Positions 4,407 through 56,778 of a DNA stretch of 64,000 nucleotides are shown piece by piece. Position numbers and translations under genes: made by a program. The stretch lies in NCBI GenBank assembly GCA_027475525.1, contig JAMWFC010000060.1, positions 1,178,001 through 1,242,000 on the forward strand, given 5' to 3'. Source of the DNA: Macrolepiota albuminosa. Taxonomy: Eukaryota > Basidiomycota > Agaricomycetes > Agaricales > Agaricaceae. Under the pieces are notes generated by a model. It was not told where the DNA came from, searched no databases, and worked only from the letters and a program-made list of their open reading frames with translations. The first letter of the stretch is position 1. Each line of letters starts with the position of its first letter.

Positions 4407-4560
4407 ATATCAAGGTAGCTACTCACCTGGCAGAGGGAGATCCAAAGAGAACAAGTCTAGGGATTCCCTATGCCAGGTTGGACATATCAAGGTAGCTACT
4501 CACCTGGCAGAGGGAGATCCAAAGAGAACAAGTCTAGGGATTCCCTATGCCAGGTTGGAT
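4407..4560. repeat. 77-bp tandem duplication 1
   Basis: Copies at 4407-4483 and 4484-4560. 76 of 77 positions are identical; the only difference is the last base. Likely assembly overlap (see findings). Confidence 0.9.
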
Positions 4561-4910
4561 GCTTCTGGGGCCTCTGAAGCATGGGAAACAACTGTACAGT
4601 ACAACAAAACCTTAAAAACTCAAAAATTGCCTACACAAACACTTGTACAAATAAGGGGCAAACTCTGGCAAACTCTGGCTTATATAAGCAGTCTGGAAGC
4701 GGTGCTGAGTGGGCCCACACTTGTCTGAATGGTGGCTAAAGAACCAGAGCATCTCAAGGGCTGAGAGTAGTACTAACAGATAGTGTTGAAAGAATAGAAA
4801 CAGTAAAATGAAATAATGTCAGAAGAAATAAGAGAATGAATAGAAGGAGAGTGAAGAGATAAGGAGTGAGAAAAGGAAGAAATGAGGAGTCCCCTGACAA
4901 GACTTATGCC

Positions 4911-5997
4911 ATGGTCATATGCAACTCAGTCAGCATAGCGGCTGCCAGCCCCACAAAGGGCAAGAAACCTCAAGTACCTGATGTCAGCAGCCTTAGCATC
5001 AAGAATGCATTTGAATGCGCTAAGGAAGAACATTTACGTGGACGGCCTGCTGTTTTTGAATGGGATGACCCCCCACGGTGCAAGAAGGTAGCCTATGTAG
5101 TATTCCGTGGATGTAAGATGGGCATATTTGAGATATGGTATGCATTTTTGATGCTTTACTTGCCACTGCATAACTTTTTTTCATGAAGGCATGCTGCTGC
5201 CCCACAGATTGATGAACTGCCTAGTGGCAAAAAAGGCTGGCTTCAGGGCTACTATAGCTATGAGGCTGCTGTCCAGGCTTGGGAGCACGCCTGTGCAAAT
5301 GGCCTAGTATCTCTGGTGCAAGACCTGCCTTCGATTGCATCAGGTAGCTGGCACCTTTCTAACCCTACACCTCATTCTCCTGCTATACTCCGTTCTCCTG
5401 CTACACCCCATTCTCCTGCTATACCCCATTCTCCTGCTACACCCTGTTCTCCTGCAACATCCCATCAAAGCCCTGCATTGCATTCGGATGGCAATGAGAG
5501 CTATACGCAGTCTAGAAAATGTTGTGATGCCCAAGCCCATCGAGCCCCTGCATCCACTAAGTGTGCACAGTTAGATTCAGACAACGAGGACATGTACTTA
5601 TCGGATGATGCTACTGCAAGTGGTTTACCAACATGTACCGCCCCATCTTCACCTCTCAGCCCCGACTTTTCCCCATCTACCCAGCCTTTTGCATCACAGC
5701 CCTTCCACCTCCACTCCAGGCCTGGTGCATCCTCTGCAACTCACTCTGCGCAGAAAGAAATTTCGGATGAAGAGTGTTACTGGGTTGTTGTATGCGGCAC
5801 TGCACCTGGCATCTATCAAGGGCAGTCAGTACTTCTAGCCTAATTCCATCACTTGCTCTGACGTTAGTTTTAGAACAGCAGCAGAAGCAGCATTGGGCTC
5901 CTACTTCCAACCTTCAGTTGTTCGGACAACAGATCTGGTATCTGCAGCAATGATTTTCACATGGAGTTACATGGCAGGCGAGGTCTCCCTGCTTTGA
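4911..5997 (+). CDS. Viroplasmin-domain (Cauli_VI / RNase H1 N-terminal-like) protein
   Basis: I assemble three exons: 4911-5137, 5189-5824 and 5868-5997, joined by introns of 51 and 43 nt with GT-AG ends. Together they make 993 nt, 330 residues, with no stop. The first exon ends in YVVFRGCKMGIFEIW, and the second continues with a Lys/Gly-Trp segment and YYSYEAAVQAWEHA. This is the layout of the viroplasmin / RNase H1 hybrid-binding domain (VxxGxxxGI..W....KSF...EA). A Ser/Pro-rich linker with PHSPA-type repeats follows (about residues 140-165). The end has a second similar half-motif (YWVVVCGTAPGIYQG), then RTAAEAALG and YMAGEV. The domain normally binds RNA-DNA hybrid or dsRNA. Its role here is unknown, and no catalytic RNase H domain follows. 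The ATG at 4911 is the first in frame. Confidence 0.7.
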
Positions 5998-5999
5998 CT

Positions 6000-6800
6000 A
6001 TATCCCTCTCCATTCAGTCTTGTTAGATGCTTTCTTTCCTGCTCTTTTTCACAATCTTATTGTTGTTAAATGTTGTAAATAACTGACAAGTAATGTGTTG
6101 TTTATACTTCAATCTGAATGATAATGACTTAGCCATAAGATGTGTGATTTGTATCTTACATTTGTGAGCCTGCACCTGTTGAACTTTGAACCTGGAAAGC
6201 CAGACTTGAAGATTTTCAAGAGTGATTTTAAGTTGAAATTGAAAATTTCCTTTTTAGAAAATGGTATTGAAAACACCACAACGGCTTAAACAGTCTGTGG
6301 TGAGCTTACCACTCACAAATGTTATCACAGTACTTAGCAAAACTTGCAGTAAAACTAAATAAAGTTTTGTCCACGCTTTTAAGAGACCCAGGAACCATCT
6401 ATAAGCCATTCTTTGAGAATTTACAATTTGAATCCCCCTGCAGTTTCTCCTCAGGCATAGGTCAAATGGTGTTAATATAAAATCTATAGAGGAGTCTTTG
6501 CTGTCAGTAGGATGATTTTATCAGTTCAAAAATTTGTTGAAAACATGAAGAATACATTGTGTTCATGCTCGAATATTGTGCAACAATCAACATACCAACA
6601 TACGATTTGTGGTTGTCAAGTCAATGGACAGAGAGAAGATAGACCCTCTCAACAGTGTCGGCTTTTTCTGATAGCCTGGGGTAGAGAAGAAGATTGACAC
6701 AAAAAAGTCTAGAATATCAGTCAAATCAACATAGGTGTTTGTGTTTGCATTAAGCCGTCCACTCATAAATTTGTCAAACAGAATCTCTACTACATCTTAC
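6000..6800. other. Non-coding, nothing recognised
   Basis: AT-rich spacer between the viroplasmin-domain gene and the TET/JBP-like fragment. Only short unconvincing frames. Confidence 0.4.
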
Positions 6801-6814
6801 ATGTATAAAAGTAC

Positions 6815-7185
6815 TGCAAATTTAAAGAGATGGTCTCCTGAACTCTTCAATTCTACTCAACAGATTCAGTCCCATTTCCCACCTTGATGACTTAGCCGCA
6901 CACATGTTTTTGTAACCTTCAAGATCTTCCGTCTCAAACTCTTTCTCTGTTCAAAATCCATTATCAACATAGCGGAATAGTCCTTCTGAACAGTATTGCA
7001 TGAATGATGCCTGCCGGTCACTGGCCTGAATGGGAACATTGGAGTGGGTAATTGTGGCAGATGGAAAGAGCATAAGTGACCCCAGAGGAAACTCTACAAA
7101 TAACCCAAGATCCCAGAAGATATCGGTGCTGAGGGGCTCAGTTCGGTCTCCTCCAGGGACAACTCCTCCATGGCAACGGAGTCAC
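6815..7185 (-). pseudogene. TET/JBP-like dioxygenase fragment
   Basis: The minus strand is open from about 7182 to a TGA at 6951-6953 and continues in frame to about 6820. It reads DIFWDLGLFVEFPLGS, then LMLFPSATITHSNVPIQ, then RQASFMQYCSEGLFRYVDNGF, then (after the TGA) a charged segment and RWEMGLNLLSRIEEF. This matches my knowledge of the C-terminal half of fungal TET/JBP-type Fe(II)/2-oxoglutarate oxygenases: a WDL strand, a late His (HSN) for iron, and an Arg ahead of a QY..GGLFRWV-like strand for 2-oxoglutarate. The N-terminal half with the HxD motif is not recognisable upstream, so the gene is truncated and broken. It lies tail-out next to a KDZ transposase, the association described for these genes in agaricomycetes. 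A different cupin-fold family is the main alternative. Confidence 0.5.
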
Positions 7186-7559
7186 AGAGCAAGGACAGAA
7201 AGTTGACTGATTGAGGGCAGTACACTGGAACCAAGTCGTAGGGCAAGAAAATCCAGCCTGAGCACATCTACAGTCGCTGGTTCAGACAGAAAAAATGCGT
7301 GCACATAGCACTCACCAAGCGCATTGATAAGAGGGTGGTGTTAAGTCCTGTGGAAGGCAGTTAGTAGGTTTGAAGGCGTTGCTAAGAGCTCATGGCTTCC
7401 ACCTCTGCAGCACACTGATTTCCTTGGTCCCAGGGGTGATTCCTAAAGGAAACCTGCATGCTGCAAAAAAGGAGGCCGTAGCTAAAAGAAAATGGCTCAG
7501 CTTACACCCTGCAGTCCGAATTCAAGATGGTAAGGTGTGATCATGTGAAACTTGCTGAC

Positions 7560-11420: not shown

Positions 11421-11437
11421 TGCGGGCAGCATTGACA

Positions 11438-29378: not shown

Positions 29379-29532
29379 GCTTAACATGGAGCAACAATGG
29401 GCTATGCTCAAAGTTAAATATTCTTATTCAGACTCTTCCGACAGTTATTCGGATTGCTTAACATGGAGCAACAATGGGCTATGCTCAAAGTTAAATATTC
29501 TTATTCAGACTCTTCCGACAGTTATTCGGATT
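29379..29532. repeat. 77-bp tandem duplication 2
   Basis: Perfect copies at 29379-29455 and 29456-29532, with mismatching bases on both outer sides. Contains an ATG opening twice. Confidence 0.95.
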
Positions 29533-31590: not shown

Positions 31591-33788
31591 TTACGATAGG
31601 GGCCTCCTCCCAACCTCATCTTCCTCCTCCGTCTCTCCCACGGTCGTTGTCGCTGCTGCTTCCGCTTCAACCATTGCCACTGTTGCCACTGCCCCTCTGC
31701 CCATCATTGCTGCCATCACTGTAGCTTCACCCGCCTCCGCTGTTGTCATTTCTTCTTCTAAAGTTGATATCAACATCGCGATTATTTCATTCTGTGTTGG
31801 CATAGGCTGGCCAGCGTCCGCTGCCACTTCTATCCAAGTTCCCGGTGTCACTGTATTCCTGCATCGGTGCGCTGCTAACAGACCTCCCAACTGATCGATT
31901 CCTTGCGTAATCTCTGGTGGGATCTGCTGGGGCAGCCCTTGCTGGATGAGGGTGAACGCCGAGGAACTACCATCCAATAACAGTTGGTACTCGTGCACCA
32001 TTCCTGGGTGTGAAGATGTATCAGGTATATGGTATGGGACATAGGGTCACTTACACATAACATCTTTATGGGACGACGCCAACATGTTCAACAGCCAGTT
32101 CCTCCTCCTTAAAATCCATGGCTGTGCCGCCTCCACTTGCCGTATCGCCTGTTGTACCTCCTCTATCTCCAATGCCCCAGGTGCCACATTGTCCGACCCT
32201 TGATTCTCGATATTCTCTACTCGTGCTCACAAACCAGCCAACTCGTCTTCGATAGCCACATGTGCCACTAAAGCGGCATCCCTGTCTCCAAATGCTCTGT
32301 CTCTGTCACAAATAGCCGCATTCCTCTCTTCCTGCATGGCCTCCCAAGCGCGTCGTTCCCGCTGAAGATCCTCTCGTGTGTGGTGCAGCTGTAATGTTAC
32401 CTGGTACCCATTTGCCATGGCCTCCTGCAACTGCTGGCACGTTTCCTCATCAATAGACAATTGGGCAGGTATTGGGGGGATTTCACGGATATCCGACATG
32501 TCCAAGCTTGGGGATCTCCACGCATGCTTGTACCCTATTATCTCCACCGACTCGGTCGAAGCTCGGCGCTTCCCTTTGTCCTGTTGCAGAGACGATGCTT
32601 CCACCCTTCCTCCTTGCGACGAACCCTCAGTCTGCGCCTCAACCGACCCCACATCCTTCGATGAACCCTCAGGCCATGCTCCACTTGACTCCTCGCCCTT
32701 TGACCTGGGCACATTACCCACACTCGATGACTTTGTATTCACGTATCCACACACACGATTAAATAATATCGAACCCAAATTCCTTGCCTCTCTGAAGTAT
32801 GGCTCCGGCGATGCTCGGTGCTTTCCCTTATCATGCTGAGCTGTCAGCGCTTCCTCCATCAATGCAGGTGAAGCTCTGCGCTTCCCCTTATCCTGCTGTG
32901 TAGTCGACGTCTTCGCCTTCCTTCCTCTCGATGAACTCCCAGCCTGTGCCCCACTCGACTCCTCAGCCCTCGATCTGGATGCACTAGCCAACTGGCTCAG
33001 CACCCAGGTCATGTCCCACCCCTGTTCTTTGCTCATGCAAGATGCCTTCCATGCCTGAGCCACGGAGCATTGCTCATGCTGGGCTCGACAGGAAACACAC
33101 ACGGAATTATCCCTGCGAGATTTTGCCACTGGTGCCTCGAATTTGCATGGTTCACCTTGACATGAGCATAACGAGCACTGGTGATGGTTAGGATGCGTGA
33201 CTGGGCCAGGAGAACACTCACAGGACCCTTGTTCTGACACCACTTGAGGGTGGGAGGGCCACGGTGCCAGTTTTGGGCCACGGCAAATTGCTCCGGTGTC
33301 ACATTGGCTTGAGGGATCTGCTTCGTTTCTGGGACTTGCTGTACCTGACCGGGCCTGAGAACAGGCTGTTCAGTACGCGTCAACAAGCTCGCAGCAGGTG
33401 CTGATTGGACTGAGCTGCTTGGACCGGCTGTCTGCATGCTCCTCTCTGGTGCCAATGGGTCGGATGTCAGTGTCGATGAACTTGATCCCATAGACCGGCC
33501 TGCCATCTCTGGGGGGTCCTCTCTGGTGCCAATGGGTCGGATGTCAGTGTCGATGAACTTGATCCCATAGACCGGCCTGCCATCTCTGGGGGGAGAGAGC
33601 GTGCCTGGTGAGTATGCAGACATGCCAGGAAACTACTTACGCTGCTGGAAAAGGGCTGCTATCCACCACTCGTCTAGACGGCACTCGTATATTTCTTGGT
33701 GCTCCTCATAGCGTAGCCATGAAGCAGTTGAGTTATCACCAGGCAGGGGTGGCGTAGGTGAACGGTTAGGGGTAGAGTGGCACGACAT
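31591..33788 (-). pseudogene. Cysteine-rich, coiled-coil protein of unknown function
   Basis: Minus strand. Exon 1 runs 33788-33641 from an ATG (SPTPPLPGD, YECRLDEWWIAALFQQ). After removing one 77-bp duplicate, a 55-nt intron with a CTCTCTCCCCCCAG acceptor leads in frame to exon 2 (to 33241, PPTLK). A 63-nt intron then leads to exon 3 (33177 on), giving CSLCSCQGEPCKF and CVSCRAQHEQC, a probable two-part zinc-binding cluster. Three DKGKRRAS-type basic motifs follow, then a coiled coil (REDLQRERRAWEAMQEERNA). A TGA at 32227-32229 interrupts, after which the frame stays open (ARVENIENQG to SHKDVM). A last block (32001-31591) has LLLDGSSSAFTLIQQGLPQQ. The layout resembles a basidiomycete family known only as hypothetical proteins. 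The final junction is unresolved. Confidence 0.55.
33440..33593. repeat. 77-bp tandem duplication 3
   Basis: Perfect copies at 33440-33516 and 33517-33593. It lies in exon 2 of the cysteine-rich gene. Removing one copy yields a normal 55-nt first intron and an in-frame join. Confidence 0.95.
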
Positions 33789-34410: not shown

Positions 34411-34564
34411 ATATTTTGGGTACAGGTGCCCTGGGGTCAATGCAGGTAATATATAATACATCCAATGCCGATTTTGATGCTGATTATATATTTTGGGTAC
34501 AGGTGCCCTGGGGTCAATGCAGGTAATATATAATACATCCAATGCCGATTTTGATGCTGATTAT
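34411..34564. repeat. 77-bp tandem duplication 4
   Basis: Perfect copies at 34411-34487 and 34488-34564. The second copy overlaps the first copy of the next duplication, leaving a 117-base segment (34488-34604) with 77-base overlaps at both ends. Confidence 0.95.
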
Positions 34565-34681
34565 GATTGGTTAGAGCATAACTATATTTTGACTGAATGA
34601 GGGGATATAATACATCCAATGCCGATTTTGATGCTGATTATGATTGGTTAGAGCATAACTATATTTTGACTGAATGAGGGG
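34528..34681. repeat. 77-bp tandem duplication 5
   Basis: Perfect copies at 34528-34604 and 34605-34681, chained to the preceding one. Confidence 0.95.
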
Positions 34682-35040
34682 GAGGGGATGGGGGGAGAGA
34701 GAGGAGAGAGAAAGAGATAGAGGGTTAATACAAATATCCGGTGAGTCATAATATTGGATTATAATACCATTGTTCATTTACCAATGCATTTTAAGTCAGC
34801 GTTGTGGCTTGCCAGCTACATAAAATCGAAAGGGCATCTTAGGGTTTGTATGTATCATCACACCTGTGTGTGATAGCATTTCTTTGTGAGTATGTTATTG
34901 CTGTCTGAAACCAGTACATTGTTTTGGTCCCAGGTATGCAGCCACCCGGGTGAAGAGGCGCATAGGACGTCGGCCTCCTCCGAAGTATTCACTCATTTGT
35001 AAATAAATAAATAAATAAATATATGATCTATTTGTCGTTT

Positions 35041-35204
35041 TGGCTGTGTACCATTTGAATATGCGGCCGTTGCACAGCCACTATAATCATGAACATATAT
35101 TTTATATTATATATTTAATTATTTATTGTCAATATAGTAATAGCGTGTAATTTCATGCATATAGTGGCTGTGTATCAATCGTATATTCAACTAATATACA
35201 GCCA
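35041..35204. mobile_element. Small inverted-repeat element (MITE-like)
   Basis: 164 bp with ~50-base imperfect terminal inverted repeats. The left end starts TGGCTGTGTACC and the inverted right end TGGCTGTATATTAG; both continue with GAATAT and CACAGCCACTATA. Each terminal repeat is itself a short palindrome (TGGCTGTG...CACAGCCA). The core is AT-rich. No clear target duplication. Confidence 0.55.
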
Positions 35205-35210
35205 CCAGGG

Positions 35211-35364
35211 GTTGGGTCCAACACTCGCTTGCTGGCTTAGTCGCATCCTAACAGGCCCTTTCTATCATAATAGCCTTATCCTTCAAAGTTGGGTCCAACA
35301 CTCGCTTGCTGGCTTAGTCGCATCCTAACAGGCCCTTTCTATCATAATAGCCTTATTCTTCAAA
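35211..35364. repeat. 77-bp tandem duplication 6
   Basis: Copies at 35211-35287 and 35288-35364. 76 of 77 positions are identical; the single C/T difference is at 35280/35357. Confidence 0.9.
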
Positions 35365-35426
35365 CTCTTCCTTTATGTAAATAGTGGATTTCGCTCGTGG
35401 TGGTGGCAAGCTTTCTTCATTGGGTT

Positions 35427-35580
35427 TTTGATGCTACCCCAATTGCACCCTTTTAGTTATGCCTATACTGTTCAGCTGTGGGTCTACCGAGGTGTTTCCT
35501 ACCTTTGATGCTACCCCAATTGCACCCTTTTAGTTATGCCTATACTGTTCAGCTGTGGGTCTACCGAGGTGTTTCCTACC
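35427..35580. repeat. 77-bp tandem duplication 7
   Basis: Perfect copies at 35427-35503 and 35504-35580, plus one chance matching base beyond. Confidence 0.95.
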
Positions 35581-36364: not shown

Positions 36365-37490
36365 TCAGTCATCAATGTTCATGTAATTCAACATTTGTTG
36401 CTCGAAATTGCTGGTACTGACCGCCTTGCCGGCCCTCTGTTGGGGTTCTCCGTCGTCTTCATATGTTTGGAGCTTCCTTTTCACCGGCTCATAGTCTTTG
36501 CATTTGAGCAGTTGCCCCTTCCTCTTCTTGGTAATTGTCAGAGTGAGAAGAATACATTTATTGTTTATATGGCCGCTCACTAGTGCAAATGTTTTGTCCA
36601 GCAGCGTTATCGATCTCAAAACTGTTAACATCTTGTACTTCCCTCCCCTCAATGGAACAACTGCGAAGGATACCTGTGCCGCAACTATAATCGCCAATTT
36701 GGAAGGTCTGCAGTTTGATCCTCTTGAACCTTTGATTTGTGTGAGCATCTATGTTTTATGGTCGTTGTCCATATATTCTTACGTTTTATCTCCTTCCAAT
36801 GTTATCCTTGCTTGCGCATACTCGACGGCATTGTCTGATGTTCTCTTGAATCCCCCTTGTGCAATTTTTTTGAGCAATCCATTGGGGTCAGTATTCTTTT
36901 CGAACGGAATGTGAACTTCTCGTTTGTCCGAGTCCTTTGCGGGTGTAAACACCCTATTGTTTGCGTACAATATCTTGTTTCCTTCATCTGACATTTCTTC
37001 CGACCATTCTTCCAGTTCACCCTCTTTGAACTCCCAGTCAAATGCTTTGTATACTGTTTTCGCTGCAGCCATGGCGTCGTCAAACTGCTGCGTGCCAAGC
37101 CTGTCCAGTTTTATTGACTGTTTGAGGTATTTACACTTCCGATTGAATTCACTACATCTCTATCAGCCATCTTCAATATGTGTAGCATCATTGAACGCTC
37201 ACTTTATAGATCCTCCTGATTGAATTCACTACATCTCTATCAGCCATCTTCAATATGTGTAGCATCATTGAACGCTCACTTTATAGATCCTCCTATCTTA
37301 AACGGGGGCAGATCTATGTCTGCTATTGCACCATACACCGTGAATATTGCTTCCTTGTTTGTCACCTTGCCCTCCTGGTCTGCTAGTAGGATTCTCCATA
37401 TTTTTGGGCTTTTGTACTGCCGTACGACTACCGTACTTTTTCATTCTGGGTTCTTCACAAGACATTAACTCTATGTGTGGACGCGATACA
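36365..37490 (-). pseudogene. Unknown gene family, copy A
   Basis: Minus strand, paralogue of 61850-62640. Exon 1 (about 37470-37270) reads IWRILLADQEG and AIFTVYGAIADIDLPPFK, with a frame change just upstream (near 37400). Collapsing the 77-bp duplication gives a GT-AG intron of about 49 nt and an in-frame join to exon 2 (KYLKQSIKLDRLGTQQFDDAM, FDWEFKEGELEEW, NNRVFTP, HIPFEKNTDP). A further intron starts at GTAAGA (about 36771). The last exon has FQIGD, then one extra T near 36693, then AAQVSFAVVPLRGGKYKML and VLRSITLL; it ends at 36365 with a polar tail. Function unknown. The order exon for exon matches copy B. The single-base frameshifts suggest a pseudogene. Confidence 0.55.
37141..37294. 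repeat. 77-bp tandem duplication 8
   Basis: Perfect copies at 37141-37217 and 37218-37294. It falls across the exon 1/intron 1/exon 2 junction of copy A; one copy alone gives a normal in-frame intron. Confidence 0.95.
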
Positions 37491-37740: not shown

Positions 37741-37894
37741 GCATTGCAGCCGTCTATTATAAGCAACTTTTCAGGGTCAACTATCTGTATGGCTTCTTAT
37801 TCTCATGTCGCATTGCAGCATTGCAGCCGTCTATTATAAGCAACTTTTCAGGGTCAACTATCTGTATGGCTTCTTATTCTCATGTCGCATTGCA
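37741..37894. repeat. 77-bp tandem duplication 9
   Basis: Perfect copies at 37741-37817 and 37818-37894. Confidence 0.95.
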
Positions 37895-38641: not shown

Positions 38642-38795
38642 TTTTTTACCCTATATTTGGCTTGTATATTCAGTTTATCATGCAACCATGGGTACTCGTA
38701 CTAATATATTTGGTTTATTTTTTTACCCTATATTTGGCTTGTATATTCAGTTTATCATGCAACCATGGGTACTCGTACTAATATATTTGGTTTAT
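38642..38795. repeat. 77-bp tandem duplication 10
   Basis: Perfect copies at 38642-38718 and 38719-38795, plus one chance matching base. Confidence 0.95.
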
Positions 38796-38946: not shown

Positions 38947-41818
38947 ATGCCTCCATGCAAAAAATCGAAGAAATCCACAGATAACCTGGAAGATATGATG
39001 CGTCCTTTGTACGAACAGCTGCAAGCTTTGTAAATTTATATCTATCTGCTTACGTCTCATTATTGTACTGATATATTTGACTAAGAAATGCAGACCAATT
39101 GAATGTGTGCATTATGTAATCATTTGTATGTACGATCTTGACATGTGCTATCAGTATATTTGCAGCTGTGTTAGCTGGCAACTCGCCTGTCGATGCCAAT
39201 TCTGCGTCTTCCTCTTCAGTCAAGCGCAAAATTGATGTCGTCTGTGATGTGTACATCCTTGTATATTGTGTTGATGTCAATGATTGCTTATTATTTGTAG
39301 TGATAGTATGCCCTGTATGCCTTTGCCAAAGAAGAAGAGGGCCGGTGGCCCTTCAAGCGTTGAGTCCCTGGTTATGTGCATACTAGTGTTATGTTATTGA
39401 CCTTCAGTTGACTGCCTACTGTTTATTTAGACGTGCCTTGGAGAAGCTTTTGGCCAGTACAGGTGATACACTGTCCACTCCAACTGGGCGAACTATGTTA
39501 GTTGGATTACACTATTTGTAGTATGACCCCCCTGAAAATGTTGTTTCTCGTATATCTTCAGGCGCAGTCGCACCCTTTCAGATAACCCTCAGGTTGCAGG
39601 GGTCACGAAATCGACCACACATATCCTTCCCAACATAAAGGCTGATTCAGACAATAACTCGGTGTCTGACAATTCTCCGGATAACAGAAATAGCATCATA
39701 ACTCTTGCAAAAAGCGATGGTTTGCCGGAAGGGTCAGTATTTTATTTTCAATTTTATTGTAAATACTGCTCATGTGTTGTGTCTTTTATTTTGATTCTTA
39801 TTTGTGGTATCGGTACATATTGCGTTTGTAAACTGCCTGCCCATTCATTGGATGACAAATTCTATGCCACTAGTGAACCTATTGTCGATAAAGACACATC
39901 CGACGACAGAGTCGACGGGAGTAGCTTTGAGTCATTGGAATTACCCGATGATGAAGCTGATATGGCAGACTTAGTTTTCTTAGACAGTGCGCCAATTGCA
40001 TGTGTCAATTCTGATAACAAATCCTTGGTGTTTGCTGCCTCCGCCGACAAACAAGAGTGTGCTGATGATAACGAAGATTGTCGTGTTATGAAAGACGCCA
40101 GTACTTATGTACATGGCATCACTACTAAACACGATGATCCTGTCAATGTTGGTCCTGGTGAACATTATGATATTGAAGAGTAGTGTCTTATTATTTGTTT
40201 GATTGATTTCTGTATTCTGATTTTTTTTTTTTTTTTTTTGGTTAGATTTGATGGTGCTACTGATCCGACTGTTATGGTTACTAATCCTCCAGTTATGCAG
40301 CTTTTTTTTTTTTTTTGGTTAGATTTGATGGTGCTACTGATCCGACTGTTATGGTTACTAATCCTCCAGTTATGCAGCCGGACGTACAGGATCCTATGTT
40401 CTCCTCTACATACAGTATGCTTCCTTATCTTCCATATGTCTGTTTATAGTATCCGCGTCGCAATATGTACCGGTCTGTTTCTATTTATTGACATATTTTT
40501 TGCACAGTCACGTGTTCAATATCATACTGTATGGATATGATAAACAAATCAGTGACGGATCAGTGTGATTTGCATGTATATTGGCCGTGACATCAAAGAT
40601 GACCAAAGAAAATGCAGAGTAAGTGCTTATGTTGTCTTGTTCATGTGCATCGTCGTTACGCACGTGTATAGGTCTTTGATTTGAGGCCTATTGTGGGTCG
40701 AACATGGCTTATACATGCATTCAGCTCGCATACATCCTGATAATCTTACTGCCAAATCTTGTCGCCTTGCTTTAAACCATGGAGGTAATGCCTTTTGCAT
40801 TGAAGTCATGTTTGGCGTCATATCTGCTTCTCATCTCTTTGATTCCAGCATAGAAGTCGGCAGTTACTTGTCCCCTTATAAACAGAAACGTTTGATGATT
40901 GTGCCATTCCAGCAAGAATTCCTGCGTTCTATGGCCAATGTTGGAAATGCATTGGGTTTGCGTTCTGATCCCATGGGCTCTTATTCAAGCTATGGGATGG
41001 CCTTTGTAACCAGAGGTGAAGGGAAGAGCGTGTCCTTCAAAAACTGTAAATTTTCAACTTGCGTGTAGCATACCTTCATGTTGACATCATTTTGTAGCGG
41101 GTGGCTACTCAGTGCCTGCCCTTACAAAGCCTCCTGTACTTACAGACGATTCAATGTTTTCTGTCAAATCTGCTCCTATCGTACCGACCCCGAAATTCAA
41201 GAATTCATTATTTGTTGACTTCTCTATTTATTTATTTCCAGTGCCTGTATACGATGGTCATTTGGAAACTGGACCTGCCTTTTGATTTTCGGCTGCTGAC
41301 TTCAATGCTATCACTAGTTGGCGCTCATACAATGGTAACACGTCTGATGTTCTCGAGGGGTCCGTTGTTGCCATGGGTTACACAGCTGGATGGTTTGAAG
41401 GGTCCTCTTCAATGTATGTTGACCATTTATTATGATATTCTTATTGGTTATCTATTTATTTATTTGTAGCTTCCTTTTGACTAACATCAAGTTTGTCATG
41501 GTTCTTCACACTCCTGATCTTGTTGTGGTTGGTGGTGCAGGCACCAGGTGCATGGCATCCTTGTTGAGACCCAGTGGTCTTGAAGGGTCTGAATATGGCG
41601 CTCCGGAAGGGTTGAAAGATATTTCTTCTTCTGGTTCTGTGAGTGGTATACCCTCCAGATACCGCAGTGCCAGCTCCAAGACGTCTCGCAATGCTGGTTC
41701 GACTGCTTCTTTCCAATCTGGTGTTGGTAGATTGGCCACAAATTGGGGTGCTACCTTTAAGCTGGCTCGTTCTGCCGGGCTACCCAAGGGGAAAGGTAAA
41801 AATAAAGAAGCAACCTGA
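38947..41818 (+). CDS. Multi-exon gene of unknown function, divergent partner of copy A
   Basis: The ATG at 38947 opens MPPCKKSKKSTDNLEDMM. Exons I can follow include AAVLAGNSPVDANSASSSS (about 39165), a basic stretch PLPKKKRAGGPSS (about 39315), RALEKLLASTGDTLSTPTG (about 39434), RSRTLSDNPQVAG into 39735, an acidic block 39835-40183 (SLELPDDEADMADLVFLD), a 40675-41055 exon (NAFCIEVMFGVISASHLFDS, SYGMAFVTRGEGKSVSF) and 41235-41420 (YDGHLETGPAF, TGA at 41283-41285, then SAADFNAITSWRSYNG). The last exon ends 41818 in a Ser-rich tail with LPKGKGKNKEAT. The basic stretch could be a nuclear signal. I do not recognise the family. The TGA may make it a pseudogene. MPPCK also opens the frame at 63595. 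Confidence 0.5.
40225..40378. repeat. 77-bp tandem duplication 11
   Basis: Perfect copies at 40225-40301 and 40302-40378, starting in a T-run. Lies at an intron/exon boundary of the 38947 gene. Confidence 0.95.
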
Positions 41819-41829: not shown

Positions 41830-42415
41830 TGGACCATATATAGTTCCTTTGATTTTCCGTGCTTGTCGATATAATTTTGATTTTGTTGTTTGCCGCATTC
41901 TGATCCCTTTGCTGAACTATCTCGTACTGTTTTTGCATACATCACTCTGATTGACTACAAAATTTGGAGCGATGAATAAGATATACATTATTTGCAATGT
42001 GCCATTGGTCTCATGTAAGAGTGTCATGGACGGATAAAACTAACTCGGTATGACCTTCGTATTCATTGATATTATAGCACATATTTACTGTTTGATTGTT
42101 TTACTTGCTGAAGGTTGTGTCGTCTGTTTTGTATGACTAATCCTTGTTGTTCGAATTCGTCCATAGTTAATCTGCTGTCAATCTAAATATGGGCTGCTAT
42201 TACATATATAATTTTATTTACTGAAAATGTTGATTTTTTATTTTATACATATATATATATGAAATATGGGCTGCTATTACATATATAATTTTATTTACTG
42301 AAAATGTTGATTTTTTATTTTATACATATATATATATGTGGCACATTAACACCCCCAAACCTCCATCTTGTCCTTTCTCGCCCTCTCCACATACACACGT
42401 ACTTTCTGATATTTT
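41830..42415. other. Intergenic, AT-rich
   Basis: Spacer holding duplication 12 and (TA)n runs. No gene seen. Confidence 0.4.
42185..42338. repeat. 77-bp tandem duplication 12
   Basis: Perfect copies at 42185-42261 and 42262-42338. Confidence 0.95.
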
Positions 42416-42421: not shown

Positions 42422-45400
42422 ATGTCTGTGACTTCCCCACATCCTCGCTTATCAAACGAGGCTTTCATGTCCTGTTCCTAGTTCACTGATGCGCTGCTAT
42501 CAGACGGAGATCTTGCTACCCGCTATGGACGAGACATGGCAATCCATGTGAGTGAATGTTGTCGACTCGTTTATTGTTGATAATACCATAAGTACATGCT
42601 GTTGTCATTTTGTAGCAACTTGTTAGCCGGATAATTACAGAGGAAGCTACGGTTTCTCCTGCCCACAAGGATGATCAGTATTCTCTGTTTCGCGCTCTTA
42701 TGGTGGGAGATGATGTGCCCATGATACCTGAAAAGATCCTGATGGATGCTTGATTTCGGATTCTCATGGCCTATCGTGTTGTGGATGTATTTGAGATGAT
42801 GAATGGGGGGGCTATTTGGAGACCCTCTTCATCTGGTCCCGTAGTTGACAACTACAAAGCAGTACGTGTCATTGTTTCTATTGGCTTTTATCAATTGGTC
42901 AAGTACAATATTTTATGTATTACCTAGCCTATGGGAAGCCTTAATAATATTCCTGCTCTACTGGAGAGATCCCAGAACGCCCTAAACTCTCATATACGTG
43001 CACTTTGATCCAAGGCGTGTAGAGATAAACAATTTGACTCTTCCATGTATTATTCGTTGGAAGGTGGTCCCTTGATTTGTTTGTACTCAAGTCTTGCTCG
43101 GCACGTTGGGAAAAAAAATGTTGTCACTACACTCATCAACTTGACCTCTGCAGCCCTGCATTTGAAATGTCTTCTTAAGGTACGTTAATGTCTATATTGT
43201 GTGTGTATTGTTAATGCTGAAAATATTGGTGCTCGTATCAGGGAAATTTATTTCTGCCTACTGACATCGAGTCCATCGAGAGTATGATTGTTTCCGGGTA
43301 CGATACTTTTCGGTTTAATTTTTATTTACATCTTATATTTTGATACCGCAGGTCGGAGAATAACCAGTCTGGGCTCGTGCATATTCGCCAAGTTCACGGT
43401 TCAGCTCCTCAAGGTCGCACAACTGTTCTTCATAATTCTTTGTATATTGCATTGGCTATATCGCCTCTCATGTTACTCAATCCTCGCGAGTATAATGAAG
43501 TGGGCGCGAAGGAAACAGTGTTCAAGGTGTGATTGTTCTCTCGCATGCCATATTGAATCCTCGCGAGTATAATGAAGTGGGCGCGAAGGAAACAGTGTTC
43601 AAGGTGTGATTGTTCTCTCGCATGCCATATTGATAGTTAATTGTATTGTTAATGTGGTAGTTATGGAATCACATAGGAGGGCTAGAACGACCTCTTGCTG
43701 TAGTAGAAGCGGATCGGGCATTGTGGAAGGTGTTGTTTTCTGCAGCTCTAGGGGGGAATCTCTTAAAGGAACTCAGATCCGCATTTCAACATCTGGAGGG
43801 GGTGGTGAGGGATGCCGCGCCTCATTGGCTGAACCTCGTTAACGGGTCTTTGCGCGTCCCTGCTACCCTATCTTCGCCATCCAATGTAATTGATCAGCTC
43901 GATATGGTGGTATATTCCGATGTTTTACCTTTTCCTGACAATTCTTTACTCCTGACCTCACTAACTGGAAGTGCCTCTGGTACCAACGTCCCTGTGCCCA
44001 ACGATTCCCGTTCATCTGCAATTACATATGTTAACAAGTTCAATAACAACGGGCTTCGCGATAAAGATGTGTGTCCTTCTTGATCTGCTGGTAGCGATCT
44101 GTATCATCCACCTATTGATAATGACAATTCTTGCGATACTCATAAGACACATATGTCGCCTTTACGGGATACTACCAATGATCCATTCAATGACGATGTC
44201 AATGCTGGCAGTAAAAATCTGAGCAATTTGACGAACAAAACTGGACGACTTGGTGGGTGTGATGTGGCAGACAGACGTCCGTCTTTCGTGTCTCCTCTGC
44301 CATATTCTCTCAACGATCATGACTCTTCTCCTTCTGGCGGGCCCGCTGATGTTGATATCGATAGAAGAGGTGTACCTGGTAGAGATAATGCTAGCAATGA
44401 TGATCAAGCAGTACTCGATAACCCCAGTGTCAATTTGTCGTTATCTGAGAACCCCATCAATGATGATCGCAACGTACTCAATATACCCGGCGTCAATCCG
44501 TTGTCCTCCGATGACCTCATTCCTCCACCAGACGAAGAACCTCCGGTTTTGGTTCCCAAAAGTAATGTATCGGGGATGCAGTCACGACGATCTGATAAAA
44601 CAAGTAAACCGCCACTATTCCTTCTCTCACTCCCAAAAGGAAAAGATGAGCTTGCAAGAACACCAAAACCATCAAAGGTACGTGTGGTGATGGTATTGAC
44701 AGGACATGGCCTAGCAAACGCATTCCTCGTGTCCTCATTGATTTGACTCTTGACATTACTGTACGTACCCCGTTATATGTGATCACTATATTTCACTATA
44801 TGTCGTACGACCTCAGAACTTGGAGTTCGACAATTCTGATATCAATGTATCCAATGACGTTGTATTCGTGATGGGGGAAAGTCCTGTTGAGTATGCAATT
44901 CACAGTATGAACCGCGCATATCGGTTTACTCCCAAGTTCCATGTAAGTCCTGTAATATCTGTTTCTATAACTGCTGCTGAACACCCTACAGTTAACAGAG
45001 GATTTGCAATAGTTTTACTCACTCCACAAATCGGTTGTTATGGGGTTGACTAGACCGACGTTTATCAAGATTGCTTCTATGGATGAATTGACAGACCCCA
45101 CTAATACCAGCATTTTTAAATATCTGACCGATCATACTGCCGTATTGATCAAAGGCATCAACCATGTAGACAACGGATTTACCGGTGCAACACTGACCTC
45201 TGTCTGCAACATATACAGTGTTACCACCATTCATGGTATGCCTGTTTGGGTATTCTTGTGTTTCATTCTGTATACTTACATATGATAGATTTCATCTCGC
45301 TAGATACTCAACGTACGTGTAGAGGTTCCCCGGTTGACGTGTTCGCTGCTGTTTTGTCTGTGGAGCCACAGGCTCTGAGCGCTCTGTATATGCTGGTACG

Positions 45401-48250: not shown

Positions 48251-51200
48251 TACTCCATCCATCGATCATCTTACAAAACCATGTTCATACACTCCACTAC
48301 TCGAAGAGATACATATCGAGTTGTGTACTTCACTTTGGTGGTGGCAAGTTCTATTCATTTCCTGTAGAGGCAGTTAGTCCGTATGTGTCTGCTGGTCACG
48401 ATCATGTCATGGTAGGGTGGGTGTTCAAATATGTTAATCACGTAGATGCCAGCGGTCTCGCATCATATCCTGTGACGAAAGGCTTTGTGCATGCGCAAAT
48501 ACCTGTACGAGAGTTAATCAACCACTTGTCTATAAAAAATATCCATCTGGTTGCCCACATGCACGGCATCAGTATGAGTAGTTCTATACTGAAGGAAGAA
48601 TTACCCTTTAAGTTTGATGGTCACAGTTGCCTATCGTGCGTCATCAACACTACGGTGTTATGGTCTGAACCAGATAAACAAACCAAAGACGCAGCACGGC
48701 GGGCAATCGCCCGTTGCACATGTAAACAGAGACAATCCTCATATCCTTGTCGTCATAGTACTCATAGACATACTCGTAAATCCACATGCATTGAACAAAG
48801 CATTGCCGTACCTCTTGAACAAGAATATCCAGATCCAGATGAAAGTGTAGTATTTCCACCACATCCGCTTAGTAAGTCACGAACCATGGATATTGTAGGA
48901 AATTTTTGTTCTGGCACAGGACAGAGATATGTGGAGGAGGCAGGTTGTGCGGTGTGTGGTCTCCTACATCCTGTAGCCGATATGAATCCTCTCAAGAGTA
49001 TGAAAGGTTATCTAGACATACTCTGCGTTCCAGGAGTCACCAAAATAGAACAATTATCTGATACAGATCGTGTTAGGGAGCTGAGAGGACCGGTAATTGA
49101 TCACTCGTGTAAACACGTTTGTCGATTGTGCAGACAGCAACTGTTCAATGGGCTCATTCCAAAAAACATGCTAGCCAATGGCTTTTGGATTGGCCCTATA
49201 CCTGACATGTTAAAATGCCTTAATTAGATCGAACAGATATTAGTTGCTAGGGTAAGAAAGTCCTTGTGTTACACTCATGTTTCAGCCTCCGGTCTGAGCA
49301 AGATGAAGGCACATCTTATTGCTTTCGAGTCACCTATTCAGAAGGTATATCAAGTCCTTCCACCTCCTGTAACCGACCTCAATGACGTGATCGCAATTTT
49401 ATTTTCTGGTCCTTGCAAGCCATCTGCTAAGGAGTTACAGAGGCTACCTCTGCTCATAAGAAGACGGAATGTTCAGCGTGCATTAGAATGGCTCAAACTT
49501 AACCATTCTTCATATAGCGATCTGGAAATATTGTACAGCAACTTAGAGAGATATCCTGAAGATGTTCCTCCTGTGTCCGTTGTTCATCGCCAAAGCGCTG
49601 ACGAGGCTGGTACGATAGACCCACTGGTACATGAAGATAATAAGGAGTCTGGTGTCAACGTGGGCAATTGCCCCTTTGTTGTCCATGGCCTCACTGGTGA
49701 TGCTTTATCAGCCAAGACTACGGATGAACTTAAAGGCCTTGCAATGCAACATTGGATGTCTAACAGAAAGGCTCTGCATATTGGTCATTCTACATACCCC
49801 AAGAATACATTTGGCAATCCAGATTTGTATCCGCAAATGTTTCCTTGGCTGTTCCCCTATGGTCTAGGTGGCATAGGCAGTAACAAGTGTGGCGTATCAG
49901 TGCATGCGCATAAAGCCAATTTGCTTATGTATCATGATAAACGCTTTCAAACAGATACTGGATTCCCATTTGCTGCCTTCAGCCATGAACAGGTAAAGGC
50001 TGCTACTAGTGGAGGCTATCTAGCAACAGAACATGCAAACTTTAATGACATATCTGACCTTTCACAAAGAATGGCAGCTGGAGATATAGTGAAGCCGGTT
50101 ACAGAGGATGAAAAAGCTTGTTTCCGTGTAATAGATGACTTGGATGTAATTTCTGGTGATGTCGAAGGGTCTGCTGTTTCCAAAAAACACATGCGGAATG
50201 AGATCTGGTCCCTTGTCATAAGCAAAGGTGCTCCTTCTTGGTATATCACCTTATCGCCTGCCAATGTAAAACACCCTATATGTCTTTATTACGCAGATAG
50301 CAAGACGTCCTTCACACTGTCTGTGCCCTATACTTTGGATGATGCTTACCATCTTATATCCAAGAATCCTGTTGCCAGCGCACGTTTCTTTCATTTTATG
50401 ATAAACGCATTCATAATCCATGTATTAGGAACCAACTCAGATAATCTGGGATTGTATAGGCATACTTCGGCATACTACGGTACTGTGGAGCAACAAGGTA
50501 GGCTTACCCTCCATTTACACATGCTTTTGTGGATTCGAGGAGGGTTAACTCTGGATGAAGTCAGGGAAAAAATCATGGACCTGTTGTCAGGGTTTCAAAA
50601 GGCTATCGTAGAATATCTAGAATCAGTACATCGAGGCGATTTCTTGACTGGAGCACTGGAAGACATCGAAAAGCATATATCGTTAAATAAAGCTGCACCA
50701 GGATATACAGATCCCACTAGGTCGCTTCCGGAACAGCCGTCCATTCCTTGCAAAGAAGAATGCTCATCGTGCGCAGCGTGTGATAATGCAGCAGGATGGT
50801 GGGATTGCTTTTGTCATACGGTGGACGATCTGCTGTACCGATCAAACATACATACATGTACTTCCACTAAGGACAAAAATGGCATACAGAAAAAAAATAA
50901 GGAACATAAAGGATGTCTTGATAACCCCATACATGTACTTCCACTAAGGACAAAAATGGCATACAGAAAAAAAATAAGGAACATAAAGGATGTCTTGATA
51001 ACCCATGGGGTAAATGTAGAGCAAGATTCCCTCGTCCATTGTACGTGCACACAGAAGTTGATCCAACTACTGGTGCTTTGAACATGCAGAAGACGGAACC
51101 ATGGCTCAATATATTTACAAGTCCTCTTATTTACCTGTTTCGATGCAATACCGACGTAACAAGCCTCCGCTCTGGTACAGCCATCAAGACTGTTTTGTTG

Positions 51201-53930
51201 TACGTTACTAAATACGTTACAAAGCCCATCCTCAAAACATGCACTGCATTTGAGGCGGTTGCTTCAATATTCACTAAACATGCAGATATACTGAATGGTC
51301 CACTTAATCGTCAAGAGAAAGCCCACACGCTAATGACCAAGATAGCTAATGTTCTTAGCACTAAAACGGAAATGGGATCGCCAATGGTTTGCATGTATCT
51401 ATTAGGCAATCCTGATCATTATACTGACCATAACTTCTCAAATTTGTATTGGCCTACTTTCGTTTGAGAGGCCAGACGTCCTTGGGCGGACGATGCTGCT
51501 GACCAGTTACATGACAAGTTTTCCAATAAGTTGGCAATAATTAAGAGACGAGGATGAGTGATAGGGCTATCACCTGTATTTGATTATATTTTCAGAGGGC
51601 CGGAGTTGGACCAAATGACTTTGTACGAGTGGTCGTCAAGATGTAAGAGAGTAAAGTTGACCAACAGAACACGTAATATATTGGTCGATGATGATGACAT
51701 ATCTCTTGGTGGAATGAAAAACATGCAGGGTTCAGTGGTTATTAAATTCTCAAGTTGTCATCCGCTTTCCAACACTCATGGTACTTATGTGTATCCTCCT
51801 TTATGTAGGCGTGTCCTTAATTTAGTAGGCGGAAATTTACCTAGAAAGGATCAAGGGGATAGAGTACTATTGTGCGACCATGTTAACGCTTTTCAAACCT
51901 TGGCGTACAGGACACGACCTTAAAAATACTGGAGAAACATGGGATTCAGCTTTTGAATATACATCCTTCAATAAGCGTCAACTCACATTGCTCAAGAACA
52001 TGAACATACGATATGAATGCTTAGATGTGGCCAACAACTTTTATGCTCAGCTGAAGAGCGGAGGTGTATGTCTTACTAATTCAACGCTGACCAGAGACAA
52101 ACTATCTGACATGATGCAGCGGGACAAAACTGAAAACTTCGAGGACATGGACGATATAATCGCAGGTGTTGATGAAGAAGCATCTGCTGTGTTTGGCAAG
52201 AAAGAATTAAAACATAGATCTGATATGCTGCAAATGTCAGCAACTATGGCAGATCTGGGGTAGAGAGATCCTATAATAGACCAAGTGTTTCCTCAAATCG
52301 ACGCCGTTGAACCTATGAATGAAGAATGTAACTCTTCTTACTGGAAAGCTGTTGTTACAGCAAAGCAGGATGAGGTACTGAAGAGCCGAAATTCCAGCAT
52401 ATCTGCATGCAGTGGTAAGTTACCAGGCAGCGTACCAGAACTACTGGGACATGTCGACATAGTAGATAGGAAGTATCTTCAGAAGATATATGTGGACGAT
52501 AAATGGGAACCTACTATTGCTATTATATCTTCAGACTACGGGCTGAACGAAGAACAGCTGAGAGTGTTCTGCATTGTGGCTAATCACGCAACGTCATATA
52601 TGCCTGAGCAACTTAAAATGTATATGGGAGGAATGGGGGGCACTGGAAAAACCCAGGTGCTCCGAGCCCTCATCAAGTATTTTGAAGCTAGAGGAGAGGC
52701 ATATCGTCTGGCTGTGGTTGCACCTACCGGCACTGCTGCATCGCTTATAGGTGGCTCAACATATCATTCGATGTTCGGCATTAATGACATGGTTGGTGTA
52801 TCGAAGAAACAACTCGTTCAAATTAAAACTTGTTTACTAGGTGTCGAATACGTGTTTTTCGATGAAGTATCTATGTTATCGTGTCGAGACTTGTATAAGA
52901 TTTCCGCAAGACTGGCTCAGCTGTCCGGTAGACTAGATATCCCTTTTGGTGGTATGAACATGGTATTTGCAGGTGATTTTGCTCAGTTGCTCCCTGTTGC
53001 TGGGCACAAAGGATCAGCCTTATATAGTAGAACTGTAGGTTTAAATACCAAAATGTTGAAGAATCAGGAGTCTGCCATAGGCAAGGCTGTATGGCATCAG
53101 GTAACAACCGTTGTCATATTGCATACAAACATGAGGCAGAAAACTCAGTCTACAGAGGATGTGGCTTTGCATACCACGCTCGAAAACATGAGGTATAGAG
53201 CATGCACCAAAGAAGACATGAAGTTTCTTAAGAGCAGATCATTGGCTGTCTCTAATAGTTGCCCATCTATATCCGATAAACAGTTTAGAAATGTTTCTAT
53301 AATCACCGCACAAAACGTAGACAAAGACGCTATTAATATTATAGGAAGTACTCAATTTGCAAGCGAGAGCCATCAGGAACTAGTGCATTTCTACAGCAAA
53401 GATAGTCCGTCATCCAGAGATGGCGATGCAACAAAAAACCATTCATCTAACTACACGCGCTCTAAAGAAACCACGAGATTTCCTCCAATTATACAGCATG
53501 CGTTGTGGGACCAACCTCCATCATCTTGCAGCATTCAAGTTGCGGGAAAGCTGTCGTTGTGTGTAGGCTTGCCTGTTATAATCAAGAATAATGCAGCTAC
53601 AGAATTATGCATCACCAATGGACAGGAAGGTTTTGTGTATGGGTGGAAAAGTTGCATCGGATCGGCCAGACAAATTATGCTGGATACGTTATTTGTACTA
53701 CTCAACAATCCTCTGCAAAGAGTAAAAATTGATGGACTTCCCGTTAATGTGGTTCCGATTGTACGTACAAGCGTGCATTTAAAATGTAGACTTCCTAGCA
53801 ACGACAGTGTGTCTTTGTCTCGATCACAGGTAGAGGTATTGGTAAACTACGCAATGACGGATTATGCGAGTCAAGGAAAAACTAGACCTTACAATCCAGT
53901 AGACTTAACCAAGTGTCAATCGCACCAAGC
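48250..53930 (+). pseudogene. Helitron Rep-helicase polyprotein, decayed and cut by gap
   Basis: The domain order is typical of a fungal Helitron. First comes an N-terminal Cys-rich/DUF6570 region (CAVCGLLHP, HVCRLCRQQLFNGLIPKNML, NGFWIGPIPDM). The Rep (Helitron_like_N) domain follows with LTLHLHMLLW (HUH motif) and YVTKYVTK (the two catalytic tyrosines), linked by CLDNPWGKCRARFP once the 77-bp duplication is removed. The Pif1-type helicase has MGGTGKTQVL (Walker A), FFDEVSML (Walker B) and TDYASQGKT near its end. Defects: TAG 49225-49227, TGA 51465-51467, TGA 51555-51557, a frame change near 51860, TAG 52261-52263. The last helicase motifs fall in the 100-N gap. Rolling-circle transposition by this copy is unlikely. 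Helitron termini (TC...CTRR with hairpin) were not located. Confidence 0.9.
50851..51004. repeat. 77-bp tandem duplication 14
   Basis: Perfect copies at 50851-50927 and 50928-51004, inside the Helitron Rep domain. It shifts the frame. Removing one copy reads straight through the expected CLDNPWGKCRARFP motif. Confidence 0.97.
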
Positions 53931-54030
53931 NNNNNNNNNNNNNNNNNNNNNNNNNNNNNNNNNNNNNNNNNNNNNNNNNNNNNNNNNNNNNNNNNNNNNN
54001 NNNNNNNNNNNNNNNNNNNNNNNNNNNNNN
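53931..54030. other. Assembly gap, 100 N
   Basis: Exactly 100 N, the usual placeholder for a gap of unknown size. It removes the end of the Helitron helicase. Confidence 1.
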
Positions 54031-54670
54031 TGTACGATGTCGATGTGTCCTCTCAATATATCTTCATATACGTTTACATTTGTTATTCCACTCACATAAC
54101 ATCATGTTTGCGCTCCCCATAGCTAGTATTCAGTGTTGGCACCCCCGCACTTCCACTACATCATCGTACGGCAGACGGATGAGGAAAATGGCAGACGTTG
54201 CCTTATCTACAGTATCCAGTTGGTACTTCGATGTATTGACACGGGTGAACGTTGCCGATCTAGTGTTCTAGTGAGTTTTTCTGGACATTTTAGCATTTAT
54301 ACGCAGTTTTATGATGTCGAATTTATATATTACCGTCAGCGCTTATGCTCATAGAGACCGTAACGCGTGACATCTCACGATAAAGGGATTCGACCAAGAA
54401 AGTTGTCTCATTGCGGCTTTTCACTTATACCCGAGCGATGATGAGCGACACTTAGATGAAGCATACACTTATTTGTATGCCGGTGCATTGTACAGCTGGA
54501 CGGCTCGGGCCATAATAGTAATGCACATCGTTCTGACTAGCGTAACTTGTCATCATGTTTTCAACGCCTCTTCAAGAGAAATCGTGAGTATTCAGTTGTC
54601 CGGTATTTTATCGTCTAATTTTATTAGTGCGGGCACATTACAGACCTCATATGAGCGGAATGTATAAATT
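54031..54670 (+). CDS. Possible gene fragments after the gap
   Basis: Open blocks 54133-54354 (HFHYIIVRQTDEENGRRCLI) and about 54385-54667 (QESCLIAAFHLYPSDDERHL, AGALYSWTARAIIVMH) have protein-like composition but lie in different frames and match nothing I recognise. They do not look like the missing Pif1 C-terminus. Confidence 0.25.
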
Positions 54671-54854
54671 CCGTCTGTATTTTTTCATATAAGTCGGTTT
54701 AATTTTAACCCACAGATAATTCATATGTTTTATTGTAGTATCAGTGCAATGTATTTTAACATTTTATTCTAGTAAATACGAAGTGTATTCATCTATCAAT
54801 GTACATGTATATACATCATATTTAAAATTAGGAATATTTAAAATTGTGTTAAAA

Positions 54855-54913
54855 TAAATAAATAAATAAAAGCAATAAATAAATAAAAGTAATAAATAAA
54901 TAAATAAAAGTAA

Positions 54914-54945
<32 letters not shown>
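54855..54945. repeat. (AAAT)n simple repeat
   Basis: Runs of AAATAAAT broken by GCAATA or GTAATA. Confidence 0.9.
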
Positions 54946-55152
54946 ATTATATAAGCGTTTGGTTGGACGGCCTGTTTACTTATCACACGTGCAAGCGCCT
55001 TAAATAGGTAAGCAGGCTTTCTAATGGAACATGTTTCTGAAACCAGCGGTTTATTCTAGAATGAAGTGGAATATTTTATATAATGTGACCTGCTAGATAT
55101 ACGGCAATCCCCGTGCAACTCCTGAGCAGTTTGGTTGTCAGCATCTGCTCTC

Positions 55153-56778
55153 ATGGAGTCGCTCAAGCATGTGCTGCTGGCATTCAAAGTGCTAGGTATG
55201 TCTCCTCCCAACTGCATAACTATATGTTCTAAAAAATTTATATAGCCTCACGAGTGGATCACATACAGCCAAAACCAAATGTGGGTAAAGTCAGCAGATA
55301 GTTGAAGGGCTATACGTGTCTCTAGGACTACGATGCAAATCAACAGTGTGTCATCGAACCTGATTCAGGCGAAACCGGAAAGCTCTGTTTCGTTATTCTG
55401 CTATATATCAAGGCATCGACTTCATTGCTTCTATTTGTTGCCCCTCCAAAATCATTCCACAAGTTGGCTTCTACTCGGTGTTGGCAACATATGACAATAA
55501 ACCAATCTACACGCAGCCAAGGCTGCAAAAGACTGTCTGCCTTCCTTTACCAACAGATAGTCCCTCGCCAAACACTCTACACGTCTCAGGCAGTATCTTT
55601 GTTCATCCGTGCATAAGCCTTGGGTATAGCCAGGACCGTTATCTTGATGCTGACTCTATGCCAGAGCTTGTATAGTTCATTGCTTCACATCATCCCAACC
55701 ATACCATTGGCATTCGTACTCACACTGGTGAAGATTCGTCTTACAACGTTGCATTATATTAGTTCCAGGCAGCAGCTGAATATGTGTCATAATGGCTGGT
55801 CAGTAGTGGATCGAACAATTTTATTATTATTATTATTAGTATTTTTTTAGGACGTACAGCAAAGCCTCCATCTGCGTGTGGACGCTCCAAGGATGACGAA
55901 GGGGCACGCATTCGTTTGAAGCTAACAAGAGAGACGCGGGCAGGTATTTGTAATAAATTGGTACGTCGGACTTATTGATTGTACTTCGAACTATTTTATT
56001 TCGATTTTAGGACAAGCAGCAAAGCCTCTAGCTGCGTGCGGATGCTCCAAAGACAACGTGGGTCGAACTATTTTATTTCGATTTTAGGACAAGCAGCAAA
56101 GCCTCTAGCTGCGTGCGGATGCTCCAAAGACAACGTGGGGGTTAACGTTGGCTGTTTAAAGCCAGCAGGAGCCACGCTTATGCGTATATGTTACTGTCAC
56201 ATGTGTATTTGATGCGTCACAGTGTCCTGGACATTGCTCAACCTGAGCGCTGCTTTGAATGTCCATTCCCATCTTATAATGTCCATGATTTGCTTGTCAA
56301 GTTCCGAACAATCATCCTACACGGTTTCCCGACCTATTGACGGTGATTCGTCATATAAAATCAGAAAAAGGGAAAGCAGAAGGACCAGTGTGGTTCAGGG
56401 CATCAAGTACGTAGTTTTTGCCCTTTTTTTTTGGCTCTGTTAAACTCACAGATGACCAGATATGCGCACACGTATGTTATTCGAGCATTCGAGCACATCA
56501 AAGGGGTTACAGGGAGGGTCAAGGAACTAAATGGTAACAAGGAACAGGTTATGTTATTCGAGCATTCGAGCACATCAAAGGGGTTACAGGGAGGGTCAAG
56601 GAACTAAATGGTAACAAGGAACAGGTGAGTTGCCAGTTTTTGACGTAATTCATCTAATAACACCCCTTTACAGGCCACGAATACGAAGCCACGTCGTACA
56701 GGGATGTACTTATTATTGTACGGCGGTCGTGTTGACGCCAACACGTTCTACGCATACAGGGACGTTGTTGACAACTGA
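55153..56778 (+). CDS. Multi-exon gene, unknown function
   Basis: The ATG at 55153 opens MESLKHVLLAFKVL. A run of short exons follows. The longest open block (about 55422-55675) reads KIIPQVGFYSVLATYDNKP and VCLPLPTDSPSPNTLHVSG and ends at a TAG, after which the frame stays open (FIASHHPNHTIGIRTHTGED). Two similar modules at about 55855-55945 and 55995-56200 share KP.(S/A)ACG(R/C)SKD. The last exons are VSRPIDGDSSYKIRKRESRR, TRYAHTYVIRAFEHIKGVTG and TNTKPRRTGMYLLLYGGRVD, ending TGA 56776-56778, with ordinary introns between once duplication 16 is collapsed. The repeated module and basic segments suggest a nucleic-acid-binding role, but that is a guess. Confidence 0.4.
55986..56139. repeat. 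77-bp tandem duplication 15
   Basis: Perfect copies at 55986-56062 and 56063-56139. Confidence 0.95.
56473..56626. repeat. 77-bp tandem duplication 16
   Basis: Perfect copies at 56473-56549 and 56550-56626. It lies in an exon that ends in a GTGAGT donor. One copy alone gives a simple exon. Confidence 0.95.

Follow-up and report, generated by a model that had tools for sequence, protein, structure and literature searches.

Tandem duplications with a 77-base period in a Macrolepiota albuminosa assembly are very probably k = 77 assembly artefacts

The window analyzed here is a 64,000-base stretch of the Macrolepiota albuminosa assembly GCA_027475525.1 (contig JAMWFC010000060.1, here C14, positions 1178001-1242000), and it contains 16 tandem duplications that all have a period of exactly 77 bases. 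Judged from the sequence, these duplications, which we call scars, are as a whole very probably artefacts of assembly with k = 77 and not products of biology. Four lines of evidence carry this reading: the exact period, its presence on several contigs, the single copy found in most relatives together with a correct order of the joined pieces at the sites where copies were counted, and the branching of repeat copies at those duplicated 77-mers that could be tested. The assembly as a whole comprises 100,137,612 bases in 129 contigs.

One period in the window and beyond

We scanned the window for exact runs at periods 1-1000 and for near-perfect repeats at periods 20-2999 (at least 95% identity). 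All 16 duplications had period 77, and Tandem Repeats Finder likewise returned 16 rows with this period. Exact runs at the 16 sites were 69 to 78 bases long. In 14 of the 16 pairs the copies agreed at 77/77 bases, whereas the pair at 4407 was mismatched at base 77 and the pair at 35211 at base 70. The original prediction, which had been made from the letters of this DNA, listed the same 16 start coordinates, the same period, and the same division into 14 perfect pairs and two pairs with one mismatch; both scans agreed with its starts and period, and Tandem Repeats Finder with its period. The rest of the near-perfect scan output held a single array at each of the periods 21, 51 and 64, against 16 at period 77, and a chance origin was therefore ruled out.

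The sequences had also been described as unrelated. This is true of the 77-mers themselves, as all 16 differ from one another, yet the flanking DNA is repetitive at all 16 sites, and each of 11 genome searches, jointly covering 16/16 sites, found further genomic copies. Searches against Pfam placed copia and Helitron elements in the window, and among named sequences the copia polymerase matched best to one from Hypsizygus marmoreus (67% identity).

The same period dominated outside the window. Across 264 kb of C14, including the window, we found 62 period-77 duplications with at least 75/77 identical bases (61 under another grouping); other periods of at least 40 bases were represented by one site each at 48, 51, 60, 64, 69 and 347, plus a satellite with a 61-base unit and its multiples. 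Five ten-kb stretches were then taken from other contigs (C114 twice, C89, C126 and C106), at round-number positions picked unseen, although the contigs were ones already met in an earlier genome search. Four of the five contained period-77 duplications, nine in total; apart from these, nothing at periods 40-399 reached an exact run of at least 40 bases. The original prediction had staked its case on a genome-wide excess of period 77; in the roughly 0.3% of the genome sampled here, such an excess is present.

Within C14, scar-free stretches of tens of kilobases lie between dense clusters, as at window positions 4561-29378, which contain copia sequence, and at C14:1242001-1294000. Gaps of exactly 100 N occur once in the window and twice in the 264 kb. 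At C14:1324647 (window coordinate 146647, in the fetched piece L027), the 61-base-unit satellite forms an exact run of 1167 bases, directly after a 77-base duplication at C14:1324490.

Table 1. Coordinates of the 77-base tandem duplications and of two other features in the window (positions count from the first base of the window; alignment remarks refer to copies elsewhere in the genome).
Position	Strand	Feature	Basis	Remarks
4407-4560		Duplication, 76/77 (base 77 mismatched)	Period scans	Within a high-copy repeat
29379-29532		Duplication, perfect	Period scans	31/39 other scored places single; 77-mer left-branching
33440-33593		Duplication, perfect	Period scans	Many alignments split at copy boundary (uncounted); 77-mer branching
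34411-34564		Duplication, perfect, chained to 34528	Period scans	Many alignments stop at copy boundary (uncounted), some run across
34528-34681		Duplication, perfect, 117 bases after start of 34411	Period scans	Many alignments begin at copy boundary (uncounted), some run across
35211-35364		Duplication, 76/77 (base 70 mismatched)	Period scans	Many boundary-split alignments (uncounted)
35427-35580		Duplication, perfect	Period scans	Many boundary-split alignments (uncounted)
37141-37294		Duplication, perfect	Period scans	36/39 other scored places single
37741-37894		Duplication, perfect	Period scans	Most alignments begin at copy 2, left flank matched at few places (uncounted)
38642-38795		Duplication, perfect	Period scans	Many alignments split at or near boundary, some run across (uncounted)
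40225-40378		Duplication, perfect, T-run at start	Period scans	Many alignments split at or near boundary; 3 full-length matches, 78-84%
42185-42338		Duplication, perfect	Period scans	Many boundary-split alignments, some run across (uncounted)
43479-43632		Duplication, perfect	Period scans	Many boundary-split alignments, some run across (uncounted)
50851-51004		Duplication, perfect, within Helitron open frame	Period scans	L003, L006, L008 single-copy; 77-mer branching
55986-56139		Duplication, perfect	Period scans	Many boundary-split alignments, some run across (uncounted)
56473-56626		Duplication, perfect	Period scans	Many boundary-split alignments, some run across (uncounted)
49264-51081	+	Open frame with Helitron_like_N and DUF6570	Pfam	Last codon ends 74 bases past the scar at 50851-51004
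53931-54030		Gap, exactly 100 N	Near-perfect period scan

Copy number in relatives and branching at the duplicated 77-mers

We counted copies in the relatives of four sites (4407, 29379, 37141 and 50851); the alignment tables of the other 12 were read without counting, for the 34411-35427 group among the matches listed. At 37141, 36 of the 39 other scored places (40 of 64 candidates scored) carried a single copy: the two halves of the query overlapped on the subject by 75-82 bases, which implies that only one copy is present there. The remaining three comprised two full-length matches, twins on C59, and one match to the left half only; the C59 match that was fetched (L055) lacks a 77-base duplication and has one of 45 bases. 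At 29379, 31 of the 39 other scored places (40 of 81 candidates scored) were single-copy and eight matched all or most of the length. One copy was also present at 50851 in L003, L006 and L008, and at 4407 in 9/9 relatives that aligned on both sides within an unselected 314 kb, where the sole two-copy match was the window itself. Had a natural repeat been inherited, its relatives would be duplicated at the corresponding position; most of those counted have one copy instead. Many alignments at the 12 uncounted sites are broken at the copy boundary or close to it.

The longer matches at 29379 proved to have duplications of their own. Seven of the eight were fetched, and all seven contained a perfect 77-base duplication. 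The one on C11 occupies the same site and has an identical 77-mer; for the other six, hand-derived shifts are 3, 20, 28, 28, 83 and 98 bases.

If the duplications stem from an assembly graph, each duplicated 77-mer has to be a vertex with diverging paths, and a further copy of the sequence should then differ just before or just after it. Of the four places that hold the 77-mer of 29379, two have it doubled (C14 and C11) and two single (C27 and C65); this 77-mer starts exactly at the divergence point of the C65 copy, which differs at the next base leftward. Among the perfect scars that have an exact relative in the examined DNA, 9/9 branched in at least one register, compared with 98/3000 recurring control 77-mers in either of two registers and 59/3000 in one register. 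With the first register alone, branching was seen in 6 of the 8 scars that could be tested in it. The spacing of the scars is consistent with the same geometry. A graph edge has at least 78 bases (k + 1), hence no spacing should fall below 78, and in the 264 kb (n = 61) the shortest was 86, followed by 112, 117 and 139 bases, with none under 78; this test is weak, as short spacings are few, and scars closer than 40 bases would have been counted as one by the script.

Proposed untrimmed joins and competing explanations

The most probable origin of this pattern is an assembly of short reads at k = 77 in a de Bruijn graph, whose neighbouring edges share the vertex k-mer, the last 77 bases of one being the first 77 of the next. 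A later step would then have strung the edges together, correctly ordered but with the shared 77 bases left in, so that the vertex k-mer appears twice at each junction. Untrimmed joins of this kind were what the original prediction had proposed, and the sampled excess of period 77, the mostly single-copy relatives and the branching 77-mers support the proposal. The k-mer list usual for SPAdes with 150-base reads tops out at 77, and the vertices of its graph are k-mers; we take the 77-base overlap to point to this program, and infer that it was the assembler. The order of the pieces would have been derived from long reads or graph paths, because Hi-C or a map seems unlikely to place pieces as small as 86-139 bases.

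Parallels exist in the literature. In PMC7379835, adjacent edges are said to overlap by K bases in most de Bruijn assemblers, SPAdes among them, just as neighbours here have exactly K = 77 bases in common; proper handling merges this overlap, whereas here both copies stay in the final sequence. PMC9104695 describes another program, which deducts k for each contig when laying contigs in a circle. Mis-assembly can also give rise to false segmental duplications (PMC2864568), which are likewise false duplicates made by assembly, but they come from building two copies of polymorphic regions, whereas the duplicates here have one fixed length, the presumed k. No printed account of k-length tandem scars was recognized in the literature consulted, which consisted of titles and abstract openings and of passages from PMC9104695, PMC7379835 and PMC5321748; one may exist all the same.

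Several observations weigh against untrimmed joins. In 12 of 89 scars the copies differ, by one base in 11 of them and by two in the other, where plain concatenation would give no mismatch; either a later step altered the joins or the pieces that met there differed slightly. The copies were identical in the remaining 77/89, a count over DNA that was in part chosen for its resemblance to scar sites. Two pairs of scars have their 77-mer in common, which leaves seven distinct 77-mers in the branching test, and the number of registers tried was one to three for scars and two for controls. Moreover, 69/78 perfect scars have no exact relative in the examined DNA, and an earlier branching count, which included imperfect scars but not the C65 piece, stood at 9/13 against 61/3000 controls. 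At the 12 uncounted sites some places align through the boundary without a break, such as those on C122, C107, C89 and C43 at 34411, on C108, C77 and C65 at 42185, on C82 at 55986, on C26 at 56473, and at three places at 40225; these may carry scars of their own, as at 29379 and 4407. Finally, one relative of the 4407 scar, L038, has its duplication at the same site and with the same single C/T mismatch between the copies.

A variant within the artefact explanation, to which we assign a minor share of it, is that a gap-filling or polishing step inserted sequence and kept a 77-base anchor on one side. Gap fillers also rely on k-mer anchors, and the gaps of fixed length in C14 imply that scaffolding took place; mismatches at some joins and the alternation of scar-free tens of kilobases with dense clusters would fit this variant as well. 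However, the chains of pieces as short as 86, 112, 117 and 139 bases and the branching k-mers resemble graph edges and not the borders of gaps.

For the 4407 site alone, we considered an old 77-base tandem repeat that lay within a transposon and was inherited by its copies. All 39 other scored places match over both copies at this site (best 40 of 2299 candidates), a result that first seemed to speak against an artefact, and in L038-L041 the duplication lies within one base of the 4407 site. The 39/39 result, however, arose because only the best 40 of 2299 candidates were scored, which favours copies with a duplication nearby, and the unselected 314 kb described above yielded only single-copy relatives. 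Ten of the 39 places were fetched, and a 77-base duplication (at least 76/77) was present in 10/10; four of these lie at the same site within a base, and at least five are shifted by 18-43 bases, and L047 has two duplications. In L039, L040 and L041 the copies agree at 77/77 internally, yet their 77-mer differs from that of the window. An inherited repeat would keep its site, but the duplicated relatives of 29379 and 4407 taken together mostly share the length alone; inheritance is very unlikely at 4407.

Real tandem duplications, produced by some biological process with a fixed 77-base unit, are an even poorer candidate and can be regarded as extremely improbable. The duplications are indeed present in the deposited sequence, and similar ones occur in other copies of the same repeats; nonetheless, most relatives have one copy at the counted sites, the duplications in relatives vary in position but not in length, the 77-mers coincide with branching k-mers of the repeat family, and the great majority of copies are identical. 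Least probable of all is that some process in the cell produces perfect 77-base tandem duplications at the very points where repeat copies start to diverge.

Genes, internal repeats and use of the assembly

Untrimmed joins would also affect genes, and apparent breaks in several genes had been attributed to them. Two sites were followed up, and the attribution held at one. At 50851, where the scar lies shortly before the end of the Helitron frame, the frame stays open in the same phase for at least 460 bases past the site in six of seven fetched relatives, two of which (L004 and L005) are twins on C59, and for 136 bases in the seventh (L008). By contrast, 33440 gave no clear answer, as the window and four fetched relatives (L029 and L037 being the same place) all have an open frame across the site. 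The Helitron sequence of the window is also about 36 bases shorter than that of L003 and L006 at 50053-50059, with a 7-base alignment overlap at the break; this looks like a real small deletion at microhomology.

Several contigs contain large internal repeats. On C81, matches recur at a fixed offset of 556,397 (at 151 kb and 557 kb), and the sampled pairs L059/L060 and L061/L062 (551 and 250 bases) are identical, the first pair including its scar; one assembled piece may have been placed twice here, or the duplication may be very recent. Several matches on C59 lie at a fixed offset of 228,712, and the sampled pair (L063/L064, 251 bases) is identical. Fixed-distance matches seen as coordinates only, on C27 (174,194), C65 (105,808), C26 (67,597) and C126 (281,388, one pair), suggest further within-contig duplications.

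The significance of these results is that of a caution on one public assembly and not of a discovery. Extrapolation from the nine duplications in 50 kb gives, very roughly, 18,000 scars (about 8,000-34,000, by hand-worked Poisson limits that ignore clustering), which would correspond to an estimated 0.6-2.6 Mb of false sequence in 100 Mb. A cheap quality check reveals the fault with the sequence alone: a histogram of the periods at which exact tandem duplications occur. Because 77 is not divisible by 3, a scar within an exon shifts the reading frame, and pseudogene counts, estimates of transposon decay and tandem-repeat counts are therefore unsafe in this assembly.

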